From Anseranas semipalmata (taxonomy: Eukaryota; Chordata; Aves; Anseriformes; Anseranatidae), in contig VXAA01003344.1 of NCBI GenBank assembly GCA_013399115.1, positions 64,731 through 128,730 of the forward strand: 64,000 bases of DNA, given 5' to 3'. This document shows, piece after piece, positions 25,601 through 63,290 of this stretch (its first letter is position 1; every line of letters starts with the position of its first letter). Below the pieces are notes generated by a model. It was not told where the DNA came from. It worked only from the letters and a program-made list of their open reading frames with translations, and searched no databases. The translations under genes were made by a program, and so were the position numbers.

Positions 25601-27239
25601 TTTTCTAATGCACCTGAAGACCTGACCGTATTCCACTTTTCATTTAAATTTTTAGATCCGGCTGAAACTGCATCAGATGAAAGCTCCCAATCAAATCTAC
25701 TTTAATTGCTGCTGTGCAGGCAGCATCCTGTTATTACAGGCACGCAGAAAGGGAAGTGTATAAGCTTCTTCTCAATGGTCAGTGGTGCTGGGTTGACTCC
25801 AGGATGTCAGAGGCCCCTAGGTTTCCTAGCACCGCAATGCCTTTCCTGCCAGGGTGGCCAAAGGCAGATTTGGCAGAGTCCAAAGCACAGTTCCCTTGCT
25901 GGGGTGAATGTGCTGGCCATGGCTTCAGCTCAGAGCACACCCAATTTCTAGCTCTGTGGTAACCAGAAAGTGCCCCAAGGTATGTTGAGATGAAAACAAG
26001 AGAGAGAAACACATTATCTGAATCAAGACACGTAGCACTTGAGTCCGTTGGTGTAGGGACATGCCTAGCTGAATTTTCTGGAGACTGACAGGGAAACGTG
26101 AATCCAAGTGACTCCAAAAAGGCTTCGATCAGTCGAGACCAAAAGGACAGTATTGGAAAAGTCACACCTAACGCTATAAGGCTACATCTGCACATTCCCT
26201 GACACCTCTGGGAACAGGAGTGCCCCAGGCAGCAGCACACGCAGAGGCTGCTGTGCTGCCTGGAGGCACTGGCCCTTTCAGCTTGGCCAAGATGTGCGTC
26301 AGTGCCCTTCCACCCACACCTTGCCCTGCCAAGCAGAGCTGGCTGGTGTAAGAGCCCACCAGTCTGGCAGGAAACCACCTCCCCACCCGTTTCCCCCCGC
26401 AGTGAGGAACGTGGGTCCTTGTGAGCAGCCGCCACGCTGTCTCCAGAAAGCAGAGAGTGGCAGTGGGCACCAGGGGAAGCGGGGTGGGAAGAGTCTGCAG
26501 GGACGTGCAGTGTGCTGGGCAAGGGGCCGGGGGAGCTGCGAGCCTGGCTTCACCCTCACACGGCGCTATGGTGCCTAGCTGAAGTGTAAACCTCTCTCTT
26601 ATGTACAGATCTATGTATTAGCCTGCAGGGGATCCAGGAGGTAGCGCGAACACACATGTGCTTCTCTGTGGAGGAAGAGGGACAAGCAGGGTGAGTCTTG
26701 AGGCTGCTGTAGGCAATGGGAACAAAGAAAGTGCATAGAACAACAACAGCTGCTTAGATTGAGATATACAAAAATAAAATGGTGCCTCAGTCCGTGTGGC
26801 ACGGCAGGAGCTGGGCTGGTAGCGCCCAGCACAGTACTCGTACCTCCTCCTGCGGGGAGGCTTTCGTCTCGGCGCCAGGTTCACCTCTCGTTTGCATAAG
26901 TGGCACTGAAGCTGGGCTCAGTGGCCAGGCAGCAGGGTAACGGCGTGGTCCCCTTCCCTCCCTCCCACACGTGCTTTGCTCTAACATCCCCTTGGTCTCC
27001 AGAGAGATGTTCAGTGTGCAGCGCCTGCAGAATGCCAAATACCCAGCCCAAGACAGGGGAAAGCAAATGCCCATGCACCAGGCAGGCACATCCCCTCGTT
27101 CACAACTGTCCCAGCCACCATCTCTTCTATGCCATACCTGGGTGAAACAGGTGAACGTTATCCTCGAAGCCAAGCTTATTTACAGGATTTTCATTCCTTT
27201 TTCTCCTCTTCCTCTTCTTTGCTTTTATATACATGTAAG
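22681..27239. other. Downstream of NECTIN1, no gene seen
   Basis: The longest open frame of the region (25779-26522, minus) has no recognisable domain and a composition like that of its surroundings. No mobile element or RNA gene is identified. Confidence 0.6.
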
Positions 27240-28392: not shown

Positions 28393-28611
28393 TTAAACAT
28401 ACTGTTCCTTAGGACAGATGTAAGGAGCCCGGGAACCAGGAGGTGGGCAGCAGAAGGAGATGTCAGAACGGTGAGGATAAAGATCTTGCGGGAGATCTGA
28501 CAAGGGGGCATAGACATGAGGGATCTTCTCCAGATATCGATCTTCACGTGAGTAACAGCGGGTCAGGTAATCACTCGCATTCGATATCTCTGAGTGACAC
28601 TTTCCAGAGTT
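28393..28611 (-). CDS. NECTIN1: Candidate NECTIN1 terminal exon B, tail ending EQYV
   Basis: Acceptor gacttttgtctctacttacag (CAG at 28612-28614) leads in phase 0 into 72 codons and TAA at 28393-28395. The peptide starts NSGKCHSEIS, the same Asn-Ser-Gly as exon A and the same eight bases AACTCTGG. It continues with a Tyr-rich charged part (DYLTRCYSREDRYLEK), PHVYAPLSDLPQDLYP, a Cys/Pro part (SFCCPPPGS), and ends ICPKEQYV. The last four residues fit the nectin-family PDZ-ligand consensus Glu/Ala-x-Tyr-Val used to bind afadin. It would therefore restore an afadin link to the alternative-transmembrane isoform, in place of the ITIM tail. FCC next to a proline-rich part could be palmitoylated (inference). 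No cDNA evidence is available to me; acceptor, phase, shared start and the C-terminal motif argue for a real exon. Confidence 0.75.
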   Translation of the reverse strand, partial: NSGKCHSEISNASDYLTRCYSREDRYLEKIPHVYAPLSDLPQDLYPHRSDISFCCPPPGSRAPYICPKEQYV

Positions 28612-31600: not shown

Positions 31601-34394
31601 GTGACTTTTTCCAAATCTAATTTATCTTTAACAAAGTTTGAAATTAAATTAGGGATAATGAACTAATTAAATTGAACTGGCACACAATTCTGCCACCTTC
31701 CCCCACCTGACTTCTCCGGCTTGCCTTTGTTTCCAGCATGGCTCCATACAATTCTTCATTATCTGGGTTACATCCTCCCCCCTCAGTTTTATTTTCAAGA
31801 GCTTGATTAAAGGGGATGTCAGCAATCTATCCATTTCAGACAGCCTGGCAGATTACCCTTAAACGGTCTTTATTTGATTGAATTAGAAAGCTCTCATTTC
31901 TGCTATGACTTCCTCTCAACCCTTTTCCATCTCCTATGCACCTGTATTCTACTTGCAGCTCATCTCCTTGGTACAACCAGCTGTGCTCAGACAGCTTTCC
32001 CTCCCATCTGACCGTATCCAATACTTTTAATCAGCCCTAAATGATCAGTTCTTACTGGTCTAAAAGCGAAAAATTCCTTGTCACTGTCCTGAGGATTTAC
32101 CTGCTCTGGTCTCTGGAAGGTCCCAGAGCTGAAATTCCCAAAAGTTAAGAAAGGAGCTATGATGAGGGATGCACCCACAGACACATGCAAATATTATTTA
32201 TGCAGTAAGCTCACTTGTAAGGTTGCATTCCTTCTTTCAGCATGCTTTTAGCTCTTCCGCTAACTATAGCTACTTACCTGTTCTCTGTTCCTACAGCATC
32301 TTAGACCATCAATAACCTTAAACATTTATCCCCATGCTGTTGCTCTTGTGAGCCGTCACCTCTATTCTTTCACAGTCAGGACAGGGTTGGTATCCTCATC
32401 CTAACGAGGAGTCACCTCAGTACTTTGCTTCATTTCTCTTGCAGATTGGAAATGGGGCTACTGAACAGGGGCGTATTCAGGCAACTGCTGTGTTGATAGG
32501 AAGGAAAAGTGATACCTGGGAGCTGAGCCAGTGTTTGGTGGTTCTCCGATACCTCCAGCTCAAACTGCGCCAAATCTGTAATGGGTGCAGATTTAGTGGC
32601 TTTACAGGGACATTCAGAAAGCAGAGCTGGGAATCGGAACCCTGCTCTCTAATTTACTGGGATCTTGATGCAAATCTCAAGGTTTGAGCTATTCTTGCTG
32701 TAACAGGGACAAGAAATTCCCAAACAAAAGTGAGAACAGGAGTGTGGGGAGGTGAAGGGGGAGGAAATAATTAAAAAAGCATAAAAAAACCCACCCTGAT
32801 CCGTGGTGTGTCTTAGCAGGGAGATTTCGTGGCGGTGAGATTACACCTTCAAAGCACCATATGACTGGCTTTATTTTTGCTTCAGAGAAACTGGGAGGAT
32901 TTCCAAATTTGGATTTAGAGGATTACTGTCCTTTTGCTGACAATAAAATCCCCCACCCTGGGGAGGACGAGGTGAGACCTCCCAGGGTGGATTAGGGAGG
33001 ACCCGCCTTGTTCGTACTAACACGAGTGGTCCTCCAGCACAGCCCAGGGAGCTGCTGGGAAGCGGATGTGAGGGATGAGGAGAGGTGGCTGCTTTCAGTC
33101 ACAGCTTCCTGCAGGCAGGAGGCTGCTGGTGATGGGCTGGCTGGTGCCTGGTAGCTGAATACCAACGACAAACAGACCCCGCAACCAAATGGAGAAAAGC
33201 AAAACCAAAGCGATCCAGAACTTACTGTCCACTCTCGCTCGTTACGTCTACGAAGACCTTGATCCTCATTCTGGGAGCAGGGGTGGGTGAGACACCGCAA
33301 GAGAGAGAGGTTACCGCTCTGGTCTGGAGATGGGCCCGCTGCAGACACTTACCTAGGAATGCTTTTGCTACAGCAGGAGAACTACAGGGCTCCTTCCAAC
33401 ACAGGGAAACCACGGGGCACAGGGATAAAGGCAAGCAGAACTAGCCCACCACACACCTTCGGCTCAGGCTCCTCTGCTCCGCCGTCACCCACCTGCTGGC
33501 ACTGAGGTTCCTGGTCTGTAATGAGGCACTGCACCAATAGAACTGTCTGCTGTGGCTTTTTTAAAGGACATTTTCCTCCCAGTCGTCCCCCTGCATGAAG
33601 CTGTTCCCCTCTAAGGGAGTTCCCAAGGATTCAATTCCCTTGCCATTTATTACTCCTCCAAAACAGCCCTCTCCATCCCCAAGCTACTGCTTCCATCTGC
33701 CTCCTCTGATACCCTCTGTTGACCCAGGAGGGATTCAGCGAGCTGCAGAGCATCCCAGCCCTCCCTTTGCTTCCTTCCTTGCCTCCTCCACACCTCTTCA
33801 TTGAGCACCCCAGTGGGGCTGCAGCCCCGTTAAGCCCACAGCCCCTTCCTCCCATTTCAAAGGCAGCAAATAAAGGGAGAGGAGCAGGGTAGAAGCTGCA
33901 ATCACCACAGCTCGGGGAATACAGCTGGACAAGGAGTGAGGGAGAGTCGTAGCTGAGGAGGGAGCTGCCCATGACTTTTTCTTTGGCAACACACAGCAAG
34001 TCTCCCAGGGGGTGGGAGAGTCCCTTTGCTTTGGGTAGGGAACTGGTGGCTTTGATACCTGAGAAATGGGTGTGATTACAGGATAAGGGAATGGGAGAAG
34101 ACCTGAAGACACATCTTTCATTTGCAAATGCCATTCTGCTTCACAGTGTCACTGGTAGCTAGAGAGGACCCAGAACAATCACTCATGGGTTTAAATGCAA
34201 ACTGAGTCCTAAGCAGTCCCTGCTGTGGGACCTGAGCTCTAAGGGCCTTAGTGACACTCAAAGTAGAACAAGCAGGGAAATGATCGGGTCTGATCTCTAT
34301 TTTTGACAAGGACAGCACCAAAGGAAATAATCTTTCTCCCTCTCTCAAACATTCAAACATGCCATCTGCATCAGCCCCATGCAACACAAGCTCT
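28612..34394 (-). other. Region between exon A and exon B
   Basis: Intron for transcripts using exon B. The sequence is mixed, with an AT-rich homeobox-type stretch at 31540-31690 and a MIR-like fragment near 32600-32660. No other gene is supported. Confidence 0.6.
32600..32660 (+). repeat. Possible MIR-like fragment
   Basis: GCAGAGCTGGGAATCGGAAC followed by CCTGCTCTCTAA resembles the MIR part AGAGCTGGGATTCGAACCCAGG. Short and diverged, so uncertain. Confidence 0.3.
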
Positions 34395-34400
34395 TTTATT
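34395..34400 (-). terminator. Candidate polyadenylation signal for exon A transcripts
   Basis: The minus strand reads GCAGAATAAAAGAG followed at once by CTTGTGTTGC, a GU-rich downstream element. It lies about 720 bases after the exon A stop, a normal distance for a short 3' UTR. Confidence 0.45.
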
Positions 34401-35120
34401 CTGCATTTGCAGTCCCTCTCTGGCTGTCTCTTATTCACTGACTTTCAGATGCACGAACCTTTACGTGTTCCCATATTCTCTCACATACTCTCCCACCTTG
34501 TTCTTTCACACATGCACATATGCTCCCTCTTATCTGTAGTCTCTTTCACGCACACAAACTTTTTTTTCTCCTTCAGTCCCCTTCTCTTTCCCTCCCCTTC
34601 TTGCTCTGGGTAGCTTAGGAAGGCCCTCAGCACCTCCCTGAAGTTCTGGCCTCGGCTTCTGCACATCCTAGGATTGCTGCTTTGCTTCGCACTGCGGAGC
34701 CTTGCAGAAGTGCCCCAAAGCAAGCCCCGTGCCCAGAGCTGGACCTTTCAAACCCACCTCATTTCTCCCTGTGGCTGCAGAGGGGCTGCCCGGCCAGAAG
34801 CAAAGCCATTAACCCTTCCCCCTCCCGCATGCCGTGCCTCACTGTAGAAAGCAAAGGAAAAAAATGCAGAAAGCATGCACAGAAGGCAAGGCGGGGACAT
34901 TCCGCTCAGCCCCATGGAACAAGGGTAGCGGAGGAGCAGCTATCGCGGGCAGCGTGCAGGACCGGGCAGGATGGGATGGGCTGCTGAGGAGCTGCCCCAC
35001 AAGAGGGGTGGGAGATGCAGGGGGAAGCACCGAGGTCAGAGGAGCACAGTGAGGAAGGCAGAGTGCGATCGTGTACCTTGAGGCCAGAATCTGAGGGGAA
35101 AGAGCCTAGAGTGACATGCG

Positions 35121-35261
35121 CTAGCGTAAGTTGGGCTGGATGGTTGCATACTCGACTAGGTCTCCGCCAGCATGGATGGAGGTCCGAGGACTGGGTGACG
35201 AGGCCAGAGCGGACGTGTCCAGCTCTGCATAGTGGACATCACAGTCCTTGTTGCCAGAGTT
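35121..35261 (-). CDS. NECTIN1: Candidate NECTIN1 terminal exon A with two ITIM motifs
   Basis: A strong acceptor (gctgctctcttctctccag; CAG at 35262-35264) leads in phase 0 into 46 codons and TAG at 35121-35123. It joins in frame to the 111-nt exon, giving ...YTDKP|NSGNKDCD.... The peptide holds two immunoreceptor tyrosine-based inhibitory motifs: VHYAEL (Tyr at residue 11 of the exon) and VEYATI (Tyr at residue 38), with a Ser/Pro-rich linker (SALASSPSPRTS). In the ITIM family, phosphorylated pairs at such spacing recruit the tandem SH2 domains of SHP-1/SHP-2; that function is inferred here. With the upstream alternative exons the post-ectodomain segment would be 162 residues. I know of no mammalian nectin-1 with this ending. 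Chance remains possible for a short exon, but acceptor, phase and motif content agree. Confidence 0.8.
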   Translation of the reverse strand, partial: NSGNKDCDVHYAELDTSALASSPSPRTSIHAGGDLVEYATIQPNLR

Positions 35262-38200: not shown

Positions 38201-40308
38201 GTGCTGTGCCTGAGCTGTGTGTGCTGGTTTCGGTGACCACCAGCATCCCTGGAGGTTTCCATGCAAACGCTGTCCCAGCTGGACACTCTGCAGCATCTCC
38301 TCTGCGGGGAAGTGCACAAAATGTGATTCCTGTGAGTGGTCCTGCAGGGAGGAGGGCAAGAGCTGGCTCCTCTGCAAGGCACAGCTGGGCAACGTGATGC
38401 ACACCTGGCCCTGGCTGTGTTGTCTGAGCAGAATCCAGCACAACCAGCCCTCCTTGGCAGCAAAGGGACTCCCTTCTTCCCCTTGCCAGTCACGAACCTG
38501 CACAGCCTGCTGCCTGCCCAAAGGCAAGAAACGGGAGCAAGCCTCGTCTCGTTCCCGAGGCACGAAGCCAAAGCGCAGTGTGCACGTGTGATGGGGAGCC
38601 CGATAGCATTTATGGGGCCTGCCAGACAAGCTGACCAGGGGAGAGGTCCAGCGCACAGCTGTGCCAGCCCGGTGCCAAGAGCGGGCACAGCTGTGGCAGC
38701 AGTGGCCAAGACACCCAGGCCGTGCATCCCAGCGCAGAGGGACTTTTATCGTGGGCCAGAGGAAGCCAGGGCTCTGCAGCTCGTTGCCACTTGGCTTGAA
38801 GCACGGGTAAGGAGCAGCAAGTGCCAGGCATGGGATGTGGAGATGCATCTTCTCAGACCAGGACTGAGAGCAGCAAACTCGGTTCCCATGGTTACTGAGC
38901 AGCTACCCATCAGGCCCCATCTCACATCACTAACTCTGCCACTTAATTAACTGACTGCTCGTTATTTCCCAAAATGAGCTCCTCCATCCTCCTGCTTGCC
39001 TGAAATCCAGCTCTCAGATGCTCTCCACAGAGCAGCCTGTCTAGCTCTAGTGTCCTGTGTCATTTAAAACTCGTCTGCTGCTCAGCAAGGGTTGAAAGGG
39101 GCTGGAGACAAGCCTCAGGACTGAGTGAGGGCTCCAAGGGGAAGTTTTTCTTTGGGGACATCAGCCACTTTGAGCTAGGATGAGGTAAATAGGATCACAT
39201 CGGCACAGCTCAGTGCAGGGCTGCGTCTGAGCCTTTTTATCACTGATGCCCTCGGCATCTGTCTTGCTGCAGACTTCTGCTAGCTAAAGGTCACTGGGCC
39301 CCATCCCTCTATTATCTGCACAGGAATGCACATTAAAGGGTCATTCCAGGATGAGTAGGAGGGAGGGGAATAATTAGTTATGTTCATAAAATATTACTCA
39401 GTATTGGCTGATATTTATACTGCCTTCTCAAACAAATGGGCTCACGTTGCCAAGATGGAGAGGCACCCGGCTTCGTGCACGGCACCCTGAGCCGCCCCTT
39501 GATGTTCGGGGAGGGAAAGATGATGTCCAAGACCTGGCGGGAGGAAGGTTTTCAGTTTTCTCCTCAAGGAAGGACTCCGGTTCTACCGATGCTCTGTTTC
39601 CTTTGCCTTTGCCCTTCTGTATCTAACCTTTTCTCCACCAGCCGCACTCCTTGAAAACCAGCCTTTCCTGCGTGGCTGCTAGCATCTCTCCCTGACCCTT
39701 AATCTCTCTGCTGCTGTTGCCTCACATTAGCATCTCCCTCTCTGAGGCTGAACAAATCCACACAAAACAAGGGGGTTTAAAGAACTTGTCGATTGAGTCA
39801 AACACTGGCACGCTCTGCCCGGCAGATAATTGCTTTGAGAAGCTCCCGCTGCAGCGCACGCTGCTCTCCGAGAGCCGCTTCACTCAGCTGCCATCACTAA
39901 CAGGGGCTCAGCTGCGGGAGGTGAGGAGTGACCGGGGTGGGACAGCGGGGTTAGCTGTCATATGTAGGTAAAGATGAGGCTCCCCCAGGCTGTGACTGTC
40001 CTCTGATGGAGATTTGGAAGCAGCAGGGTGTTTCACTGGGGAACAACCTGTGAAGCCCCAGCTGTAGGACTTATGGGAAGCAAGGGGCAAGTGCTGAAGC
40101 AGGGCCAGTGGTACGTGGGAGGCAGAGGCTGTGCTCGGAGCGAGGAGGCTGCCTCCCTCCAGGGGAGGATGCTCCTGGCCTCTGAAGGCTGCTGGTGCAC
40201 CCAGCTGGCTGGCGGGGGTCTTTTGTTTTGTGGGGCAAGGGATCCTGGGTGAGAGCAGTGAGGCCAGGGCTGAGGATGAGGGCGGCAGCACGGTTAGCAC
40301 CCGGATCT
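35262..40308 (-). other. Candidate intron from the 111-nt exon to exon A
   Basis: About 5 kb. A CA-rich stretch with many ACAC and GCAC steps runs at about 37100-37330. No further exon, RNA gene or mobile element is recognisable. Confidence 0.65.
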
Positions 40309-40314
40309 CCTTAC
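40294..40314 (-). CDS. NECTIN1: Read-through ending of the 111-nt exon (short isoform 2 tail)
   Basis: If the donor at 40309-40314 is not used, the frame continues six residues (VRRSGC) to TAA at 40294-40296. Human isoform 2, as I recall it, also ends shortly after this point with an Arg-, Gly- and Cys-containing tail, so this short ending may be the direct counterpart of the human form. I find no minus-strand AATAAA close downstream, so its mRNA 3' end is unclear. Confidence 0.5.
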   Translation of the reverse strand, partial: VRRSGC

Positions 40315-40425
40315 CGGCTTGTCGGTGTAGGGAGAGGGCTCGGTGGCTGCCATGTCGTAGTACAGAGGCTGCAGAGGGAGCTTCTGGATTTCCTCCTCGT
40401 GCTTCATGTTGTCCAAGTGGACGAC
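40315..40425 (-). CDS. NECTIN1: NECTIN1 alternative tail exon with YYDM motif (111 nt)
   Basis: A 111-nt, 37-codon exon, phase 0 at both ends, with acceptor ctgatacag (CAG at 40426-40428) and donor CCG|GTAAGG (40309-40314). It encodes VVHLDNMKHEEEIQKLPLQ, then PLYYDMAATEPSPYTDKP. The match to human isoform 2 is clear at VVHLD, the Glu-rich run, and QKLxLQPxYYD. Tyr22-Tyr23-Asp-Met is a YxxM sequence, the consensus for the PI3-kinase p85 SH2 domain; human has Leu at the last position by my recollection. Because it is symmetric, this exon can be skipped without a frameshift. It can splice on to exon A or exon B below, or read through its donor to a nearby stop. Confidence 0.92.
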
Positions 40426-40938: not shown

Positions 40939-41026
40939 CTGGATGTCTTCTGCAGTCAGGTGGCCTTTCATCTCCTGTTTCCTCTTCGGTGGAGGGGCCG
41001 GTTTGTGGGACGGAGGCAAGTCAATT
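40939..41026 (-). CDS. NECTIN1: NECTIN1 alternative tail exon, proline-rich (88 nt)
   Basis: An 88-nt exon with acceptor tctttacctgcag (CAG at 41027-41029) and donor GTACGG (40933-40938, a weaker form). Its first base completes the leucine codon begun by the transmembrane exon; it then encodes 29 residues, starting IDLPPSHKPAPPPKRK and ending KGHLTAEDIQ, and exits in phase 0. The terminal EDIQ followed by VVHLD in the next exon matches the EDIQVVHLD segment that I recall from human nectin-1 isoform 2, which fixes the identity. PAPPPK fits a class II SH3 ligand (PxxPxK); binding is inference. Confidence 0.93.
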
Positions 41027-42973: not shown

Positions 42974-43121
42974 AGGTCGTGGTCTGTGTCTGTGCAGTTC
43001 TTCTGTTGCCTCCTGTAGACAATAAACACGGTGACAGCCACCACGATGATGAGAGCTGCTGCGATGACGCCTCCCATGATCCCAATAATGCCTCCCGGGG
43101 CACCCTGAGGTAGTGGCTTGT
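42974..43121 (-). CDS. NECTIN1: NECTIN1 alternative transmembrane exon (isoform 2 / HIgR type)
   Basis: A 148-nt exon with acceptor CAG at 43122-43124 (tract ttccctgtgtgttgcag) and a perfect donor GTAAGT at 42968-42973. Entry is phase 1 (the last base of the upstream exon plus AC), exactly like the alpha exon, so both can be joined to the same Ig-domain exon. It encodes a short proline-containing juxtamembrane stretch (KPLPQGAP), a glycine/alanine/valine-rich helix (GGIIGIMGG...VTVFIVY), a stop-transfer RRQQK, and an acidic NCTDTDHD. As I recall the human isoform 2 tail, it has the matching pattern of KP, helix, YxRQQK and ETD. Exit is phase 2, and the split codon CT|A is completed by the next exon. 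Very different sequence from the alpha helix, same topology. Expression is not shown by sequence alone. Confidence 0.93.
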
Positions 43122-62748: not shown

Positions 62749-63290
62749 CTACACGTACCACTCCTTTTTGGAAATAAAAGATCCGTCGTTCTGCGAGACC
62801 ATGTTCTCTGCTATGTCGAGCTGCTCGGGGTCGTACTGGAAGCCGAGTGTCCTTTCGTCGTAAGGCTCGGGGTGCGCCTCCCCCTCGTCTACCGTGAAGT
62901 AAGGCCGCTTAGCATCCTCCTCGTATTTGTTGGGGCCGCCCAGCTTGCGCTCACCTCCCGCATCCTCGTCCTCGTCTTCGTAGGTGCTGCCGCCCAGCGG
63001 GCCCGGCTTCTTCTCGTCGTCCGAGTCGTCGGGGTACTGGAGGTTTTGGGCCATGGGGGGGTGATGCTGCGGGATGCCGGCCTTGCTGTAGCCATTGCCG
63101 TACACGTGCTTCTTTGTGCTGTAGTCACCCTTGAAGGTGTGACGCCGACGCCGGAGTACCACAAAGAGCACCACGGCCACCACCAGGACCAGCGAGATTC
63201 CTCCCACTATGCCCCCGATCACAGGGGTGGGGATGTTCGTCTGCACCACGGATTTGCGATCATCGATTGGAGACGGGGTGTAGGGAAATT
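62749..63290 (-). CDS. NECTIN1: NECTIN1 alpha terminal coding exon (transmembrane and afadin-binding tail)
   Basis: This is the last coding exon of classical nectin-1 alpha, a calcium-independent adhesion molecule of adherens junctions and synapses. A pyrimidine-rich acceptor ending CAG (63291-63293) precedes it, and entry is in phase 1. It encodes 179 whole codons: about 22 extracellular residues starting FPYTPSP, a hydrophobic helix of about 23 residues (VIGGIVGG...LFVVL), then RRRR and a 134-residue cytoplasmic tail. The tail blocks HTFKGDYSTKKHVYGNGYS, PQHHPPMAQNLQYPDDSDD and NMVSQNDGSFISKKEWYV are diagnostic of nectin-1. The final EWYV is the family's ligand for the afadin PDZ domain, which links nectins to actin. 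TAG is at 62749-62751. An acidic run (EDEDEDAGG) sits where mammals have a longer Glu/Gly stretch. The N-terminal exons lie beyond the window, so the gene is partial here. Confidence 0.98.

Follow-up and report, generated by a model that had tools for sequence, protein, structure and literature searches.

Exon D of NECTIN1 is predicted to end a beta-type nectin-1 of Anseranas semipalmata with two ITIMs; the tail that it encodes is probably inhibitory, acting via SHP-1/SHP-2, and the choice between an anchoring and an inhibitory nectin-1 contact is likely made by splicing. Nectins are regarded as adhesion proteins with afadin-binding tails and as ligands for immune receptors of the opposite cell, and nectin-1 is in addition a main entry receptor of herpes simplex and has been linked to clefting. 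If the proposal is true, nectin-1 itself could receive an inhibitory signal, beyond its adhesion and ligand roles, and such a signalling isoform would bear on epithelial, neural and immune biology. The D isoform is ancient and overlooked: it is found in gene models, and as a biological entity it was not found described in the literature searched.

The NECTIN1 Locus

The window, i.e., the whole 64-kb stretch analysed here, corresponds to positions 64731-128730 of its contig in the A. semipalmata genome assembly (1.10 Gb, 4,080 contigs) and carries a portion of NECTIN1 on its minus strand (Table 1). Ig exons are located upstream of the window exons, on the same strand and contig, and are 86-95% identical to a bird homologue, a Myiozetetes model (P0001) harboring V-set and C2-set/Ig domains; no signal-peptide exon was found among these upstream exons. 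The gene of the window presents the features of nectin-1, namely a V-set and two further Ig domains, a single TM segment and orthology. The donor of the last Ig exon ends in phase 1 and thus fits both exon A and the alpha-type terminal exon, the latter located with a human nectin-1 query.

Table 1. NECTIN1 exons, motifs and signals in the window (positions of the window).
Feature	Positions	Strand	Evidence
Alpha-type terminal exon, TM segment and tail ending KEWYV (isoform 1)	62752..63290	-	tblastn with human nectin-1 as query, 74% identity; acceptor at 63290
Exon A, alternative (beta-type) TM exon, DKPLPQGAPGGIIGIMGG...DTDHDL	42974..43121	-	Preceding Ig exon donor in phase 1
Exon B, cytoplasmic, IDLPPSHKPAPPPKRKQEMKGHLTAEDIQ	40939..41026	-	
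Exon C, cytoplasmic, VVHLDNMKHEEE...YYDM...YTDKP; strong donor; read-through end VRRSGC and stop	40315..40425	-	
Exon D, 46-residue two-ITIM tail and stop codon	35121..35261	-	Sequence reading and homologues
ITIM 1, VHYAEL	35220..35237	-	Tyr kept in 57/58 full-D-ending proteins
ITIM 2, VEYATI	35139..35156	-	Intact in 59/87 fetched proteins with the ITIM 1 pattern; 28/87 leave D after DLV(E/D)
Internal donor GTCGA/GTATGC within the ITIM 2 codons	35151..35152	-	Weak score, top 18.6% of GT sites
AATAAA, first one 3' of exon D; candidate poly(A) signal for terminal D	34395..34400	-	
Exon E, 45 nt, two open frames (NEDQGLRRRNEREWT; MRIKVFVDVTSESGQ)	33226..33270	-	100% matches to P0088 and P0021 peptides
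Exon F, frame 0 NSGKCHSEIS...PYICPKEQYV and stop (E-x-Y-V-type PDZ ligand); shifted frame TLESVTQRYRMRVIT and stop	28393..28611	-	

Exon D and Its Two ITIMs

Read directly, exon D follows a pyrimidine-rich acceptor (...ctctcttctctccag / AACTCTGGC) and encodes the 46-residue peptide NSGNKDCDVHYAELDTSALASSPSPRTSIHAGGDLVEYATIQPNLR, closed by a TAG stop at 35123-35121. Exon C ends with ...GACAAGCCG followed by gtaagg in phase 0, so that the C-D junction is in frame, and the joined window exons give an open TM and tail sequence of 162 residues. According to a rough position-weight score, the D acceptor ranks within the top 0.32% of the 10,228 AG sites of both strands of the window, and the C donor within the top 0.66% of 5,904 GT sites. 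In the tail, 27 residues separate Tyr11 from Tyr38, and both hexamers match (S/I/V/L)xYxx(I/V/L), which gives the two cytoplasmic copies at a spacing of 20-30 residues expected in the sequence of an ITIM receptor. The original prediction, made from the letters of the window, had proposed this exon (35261-35121), its acceptor, its phase-0 continuity with the exon at 40425-40315 and a 46-residue tail with VHYAEL and VEYATI at that distance, all of which were borne out by direct reading.

An ITSM reading of the PD-1, BTLA or SLAM type was rejected because T is lacking at Y-2: the ITSM consensus is TxYxx(V/I), and this position is V in both window motifs and V or I across homologues. Canonical nectins carry a C-terminal E/A-x-Y-V PDZ ligand for afadin. 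The D form ends instead with IQPNLR, whereas the alpha form (KEWYV) and the F form (KEQYV) both end with such a ligand by sequence. No second copy of the tail was found in the same genome, where the single match at E up to 1 is the window's own exon, and comparisons of the tail with solved structures and Pfam gave no match.

Distribution of the Tail among Vertebrates

The query for homologous proteins consisted of the final 93 residues, from the end of exon B through C and D, with a human ectodomain as length filler; 120 of the 166 matches were listed and fetched, and a second search with the tail of a capuchin model added seven. These homologues are all gene models or predicted entries. The best match, P0001 (15 member sequences), is 91% identical over the last 93 residues. 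Full-tail nectin-1 is present in sharks and rays (P0003, P0017, P0029, P0060, P0061, P0096), many ray-finned fish, axolotl and frogs (P0022, P0047, P0071, P0076), snakes (P0058, P0069), one bird (P0001) and, as weak matches, capuchin and rat, to which the capuchin-tail search added models of horse, beaver, guinea pig and badger. An elephant-shrew model also exhibits both motifs, inside a fused prediction.

According to their ends, the 127 fetched proteins comprise 58 with full D, 26 continuing downstream of the D internal donor, 34 ending with F and nine others, and a whole-length recount of 128 proteins gave both motifs in 59 and departure from D after DLV(E/D) in 28. Turtles, crocodilians and lizards had no full-D model among the matches listed (120 of 166) and present the F or internal-donor form instead; that full D is missing from their fetched models does not mean that it is missing from their genomes. 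The tail-bearing isoform is already in databases as a predicted entry and hence is not new there. The original prediction treated the tail as a feature of this one genome, a view that has to be replaced by that of an ancient isoform already included in automatic models of many vertebrates.

Conservation of Exon D and Its Motifs

The two tyrosines are separated by 26 (n = 3), 27 (n = 22) or 28 (n = 33) residues in the 58 full-D proteins. An alignment across vertebrates had been proposed to follow both tyrosines, and these are kept from fish to mammals, as expected for orthologues of an ITIM receptor, with the exception of the badger model, in which the first motif reads IHHAEL and has lost its tyrosine. 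The invariance of VEYATI within the 58 is circular because this set was chosen partly on VEYATI; a less circular statement is that no mutated ITIM 2 occurs among the 87 proteins found by ITIM 1, in which it is either intact or spliced away.

Between P0001 and six fetched full-D proteins of cartilaginous fish, exon D is 85-89% identical and the Ig ectodomain 66-68%; for exon C, included in five cartilaginous-fish proteins, identity is 59-70%. The same comparison of D with the ectodomain was made for 57 full-D proteins, the badger model, which has no Ig ectodomain, being dropped. D is more identical than the ectodomain in 49 of the 56 comparable proteins (one of the 49 with a truncated ectodomain) and less so in seven, namely two snakes (74% vs 77-78%) and five mammals (52-61% vs 74-76%). 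Divergence in mammals extends over the entire beta tail and offers a natural test. Six mammalian tails agree with the window at 67 of 72 cells of the 12 motif residues (93%) and at 81 of 198 cells elsewhere in D (41%), with a Fisher p of about 6e-16 that is indicative, as the sequences are related and shared ancestry is ignored; 2 of 20,000 random site sets were equally conserved. The corresponding counts in 52 non-mammals are 567/624 for the motifs and 1255/1716 for the rest of D. Both motifs are kept, together with a DTSAL stretch behind ITIM 1 and a Q behind ITIM 2, and the linker drifts at constant length. The conserved motif cores speak for selection on a tail of phosphotyrosine type, and a drifting linker of fixed length between kept motifs would correspond to the needs of a bivalent SH2-docking tail.

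Exon C encodes a YxxM-like (PI3K-type) site, which reads YYDM in 112, YYDL in 11 and YYDI in three of the 126 fetched proteins (of 128) showing the local pattern. YYDL is found in mammalian tails, and likewise in a shark (P0061) and a crocodile (P0084).

Alternative 3' Ends

Eight exon combinations joined from the window are each open to a natural stop, and models for each alternative end are present in other vertebrates. Read-through of exon C ends immediately (DKPVRRSGC and stop), splicing of C to D gives two ITIMs, cutting D at its internal donor leaves one ITIM followed by E and F in the shifted frame to ...TLESVTQRYRMRVIT and stop, and direct splicing of C to F gives ...PYICPKEQYV, with an E-x-Y-V end as in canonical nectins. 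The KEQYV end of the F form is a predicted afadin-type PDZ ligand. The internal donor scores weakly in the window, and its use here is therefore uncertain. The original prediction did not include the competing exons E and F nor the donor inside ITIM 2.

F-type ends, of which the fetched proteins have 36, read EQSV (22), EQYV (13) or KEQA (1). A dedicated search for exon F found none in mammals among its 14 matches (19 candidates), which come from sauropsids and a sturgeon. Exons E and F can each be read in two open frames, of which lizard models use the shifted one (MRIKVFVDVTSESGQ in P0021, TLESVTQRYRMRVIT in P0020) and others frame 0; the shifted frame of F is reached via the internal donor of D, and the window encodes peptides identical to both lizard sequences. 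Conserved dual coding of F was considered and rejected: in many teleosts the shifted frame ends early (TLGGVQKSC-like), so independent selection on that frame of F is not claimed.

Comparison with Known Systems

The closest known protein of the same gene is nectin-1 beta/HIgR (isoform 2), which has the common Ig ectodomain, the beta TM exon and exons B and C. It reads through the C donor and ends at once, whereas the D form splices to D and gains two ITIMs. Mammalian models of 457 and 458 residues (P0126, P0127), which we take to be HIgR, agree with the capuchin D form as far as exon C; the 458-residue P0126 ends with SVRTTELGGECP at the exon C read-through position. The VRRSGC read-through end of the window is the counterpart of this mammalian end.

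CEACAM1 is described as an adhesion protein that acquires, through alternative splicing, a tail whose two ITIMs bind SHP-1/SHP-2 (PMC6468645). The likeness between CEACAM1-L/-S and nectin-1 resides in an Ig adhesion protein with an ITIM pair spliced on or off, but gene and tail are different, and nectin-1 uses alternative 3' ends, one of which is a predicted PDZ ligand. The alternative ends of such a putative CEACAM1-like switch are exons in the window and gene models elsewhere. By analogy, CEACAM1 may serve as the closest working model for the tail switch of nectin-1.

A study on PD-1 and BTLA describes two tyrosine motifs in each (ITIMs VDYGEL and IVYASL), which bind SHP-1/SHP-2 through both SH2 domains in parallel, and reports that alanine at pY+1 of an ITIM favours SHP-1 (PMC8631942). 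The tyrosines are 25 residues apart in PD-1 (Y223/Y248) and in BTLA (Y257/Y282; PMC8631942). The second motif of both proteins is an ITSM, unlike the VEYATI of nectin-1 with its V at Y-2, and both are dedicated immune receptors. SIRPalpha has a different ectodomain and a different ligand, CD47. What it has in common with the D tail is an alanine at pY+1 of its ITIM (PMC8631942). Within the nectin family, a 2020 survey singles out PVR/CD155 (Necl-5), of nine human nectins and necls, as the one with an ITIM, in a tail that lacks the nectin PDZ and necl 4.1 sites (PMC7286890).

Proposed Function

Inhibitory signalling by the D form is plausible from its sequence. Paired ITIMs recruit SHP-1/SHP-2. 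Binding of a neighbouring cell would lead to tyrosine phosphorylation of the D tail, which would then recruit SHP-1/SHP-2 and damp kinase signalling at the contact. By comparison with PD-1 and BTLA, a tail with tyrosines 27 residues apart would bind a single phosphatase through both of its SH2 domains, and the alanine at pY+1 of both motifs would admit SHP-1 beside SHP-2. Gene models suggest that the splice choice after C lies between D (two ITIMs), D cut internally (one ITIM), F and read-through (short tail). In the F form, KEQYV is predicted to tie nectin-1 to afadin and actin, and splicing would decide between anchored and inhibitory nectin-1 contacts, like CEACAM1-S/L.

A broader reading can be put forward more tentatively, and we would not favour it over its negation: nectin-1 might serve jawed vertebrates as an inhibitory contact receptor of ancient origin, with a switch after C between an actin anchor, a double-ITIM brake and a single-ITIM form produced by the cut in ITIM 2 and F in the other frame. 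As for the setting, a table in one review gives nectin-1 as lacking on T and NK cells, with no determination for B cells or monocytes/macrophages (PMC10045777), so that contacts in epithelium or neural tissue are no less likely than an immune setting.

Alternative Explanations

The main rival is a sorting tail, in which YAEL and YATI would serve chiefly as YxxPhi signals, for basolateral sorting or for endocytosis through AP-2, and thus give a fast-internalised nectin-1 rather than an inhibitory one. Both words do match the YxxPhi consensus of endocytic signals, in the window and in nearly all homologues, but that consensus requires neither V/I at Y-2 nor a fixed spacing, whereas all full-D proteins (58/58) have V or I at Y-2 of ITIM 1 and a spacing of 26-28. 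We consider endocytic sorting unlikely as the main role; it may coexist with an inhibitory one. The tail could also dock other SH2 proteins, such as Src kinases, SHIP, or Grb2/PI3K together with the YYDM of exon C, and deliver an activating or switching signal. This is less probable still: the prevalence of YYDM in exon C speaks for it, but mammalian tails keeping both ITIMs carry YYDL in its place, and an alanine at pY+1, as both motifs have, has been described in the ITIMs of BTLA, SIRPalpha and Siglec-6/-9 (PMC8631942).

If D were a regulatory or poison exon, kept for its splice signals and stop and lowering nectin-1 output by decay or premature polyadenylation, its peptide would be incidental. 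The stop codon and the internal donor, with E and F downstream, would suit such a role, which is nevertheless very improbable given that residue conservation is specific to the motifs in mammals and that D outconserves the ectodomain between bird and cartilaginous fish; moreover, the internal donor requires only about GTATG and would leave ITIM 1 and the following T-I-Q unexplained. Least credible of all is an unused open frame carrying two random ITIM-like words. The motif is short; yet at least two ITIMs occurred in only 357 of 200,000 shuffles of the 46 tail residues, and homologous tails are present in cartilaginous fish, ray-finned fish, amphibians, snakes, a bird and mammals. A chance frame was thus rejected on the conservation of the tail, and we regard the same tail in other vertebrates as a stronger argument than chance estimates.

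Standing in the Literature

The 2020 survey of nectin evolution assigns PDZ ligands (afadin) to nectins and an ITIM to PVR alone, and used the longest isoform per gene (PMC7286890), a choice by which the D isoform could be passed over. No description of an ITIM-bearing nectin-1/PVRL1 was found among the matches listed, mostly at the level of titles and abstracts and including passages of PMC7286890, PMC6373967, PMC10045777 and PMC11989267. Similarly, the strings VEYATI, YAELDTS and HYAELD have no occurrence in the literature text searched. The claim that no nectin-1 form of this kind is described consequently stands as far as the literature searched is concerned and has to be qualified by the existence of predicted database entries.

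Additional 3' Matches

Terminal pieces of several bird nectin-1 models match other parts of the window. The terminal piece of a peafowl model (P0083) matches the intron past exon C at 40186-40315, with 55% identity. An ostrich model (P0088) reads part of D and the sequence downstream in another frame (CPLCRAGHVRSGLVTQSSDLHP...; 35077-35250, minus strand, 91% identical), which looks like a gene-model error because the window has a stop near the start of that frame. Downstream of F, 25928-25984 and 26928-27137 (minus strand) match the terminal pieces of nectin-1 models of a woodpecker (P0089) and a crane (P0080), and represent possible extra 3' exons or UTR.
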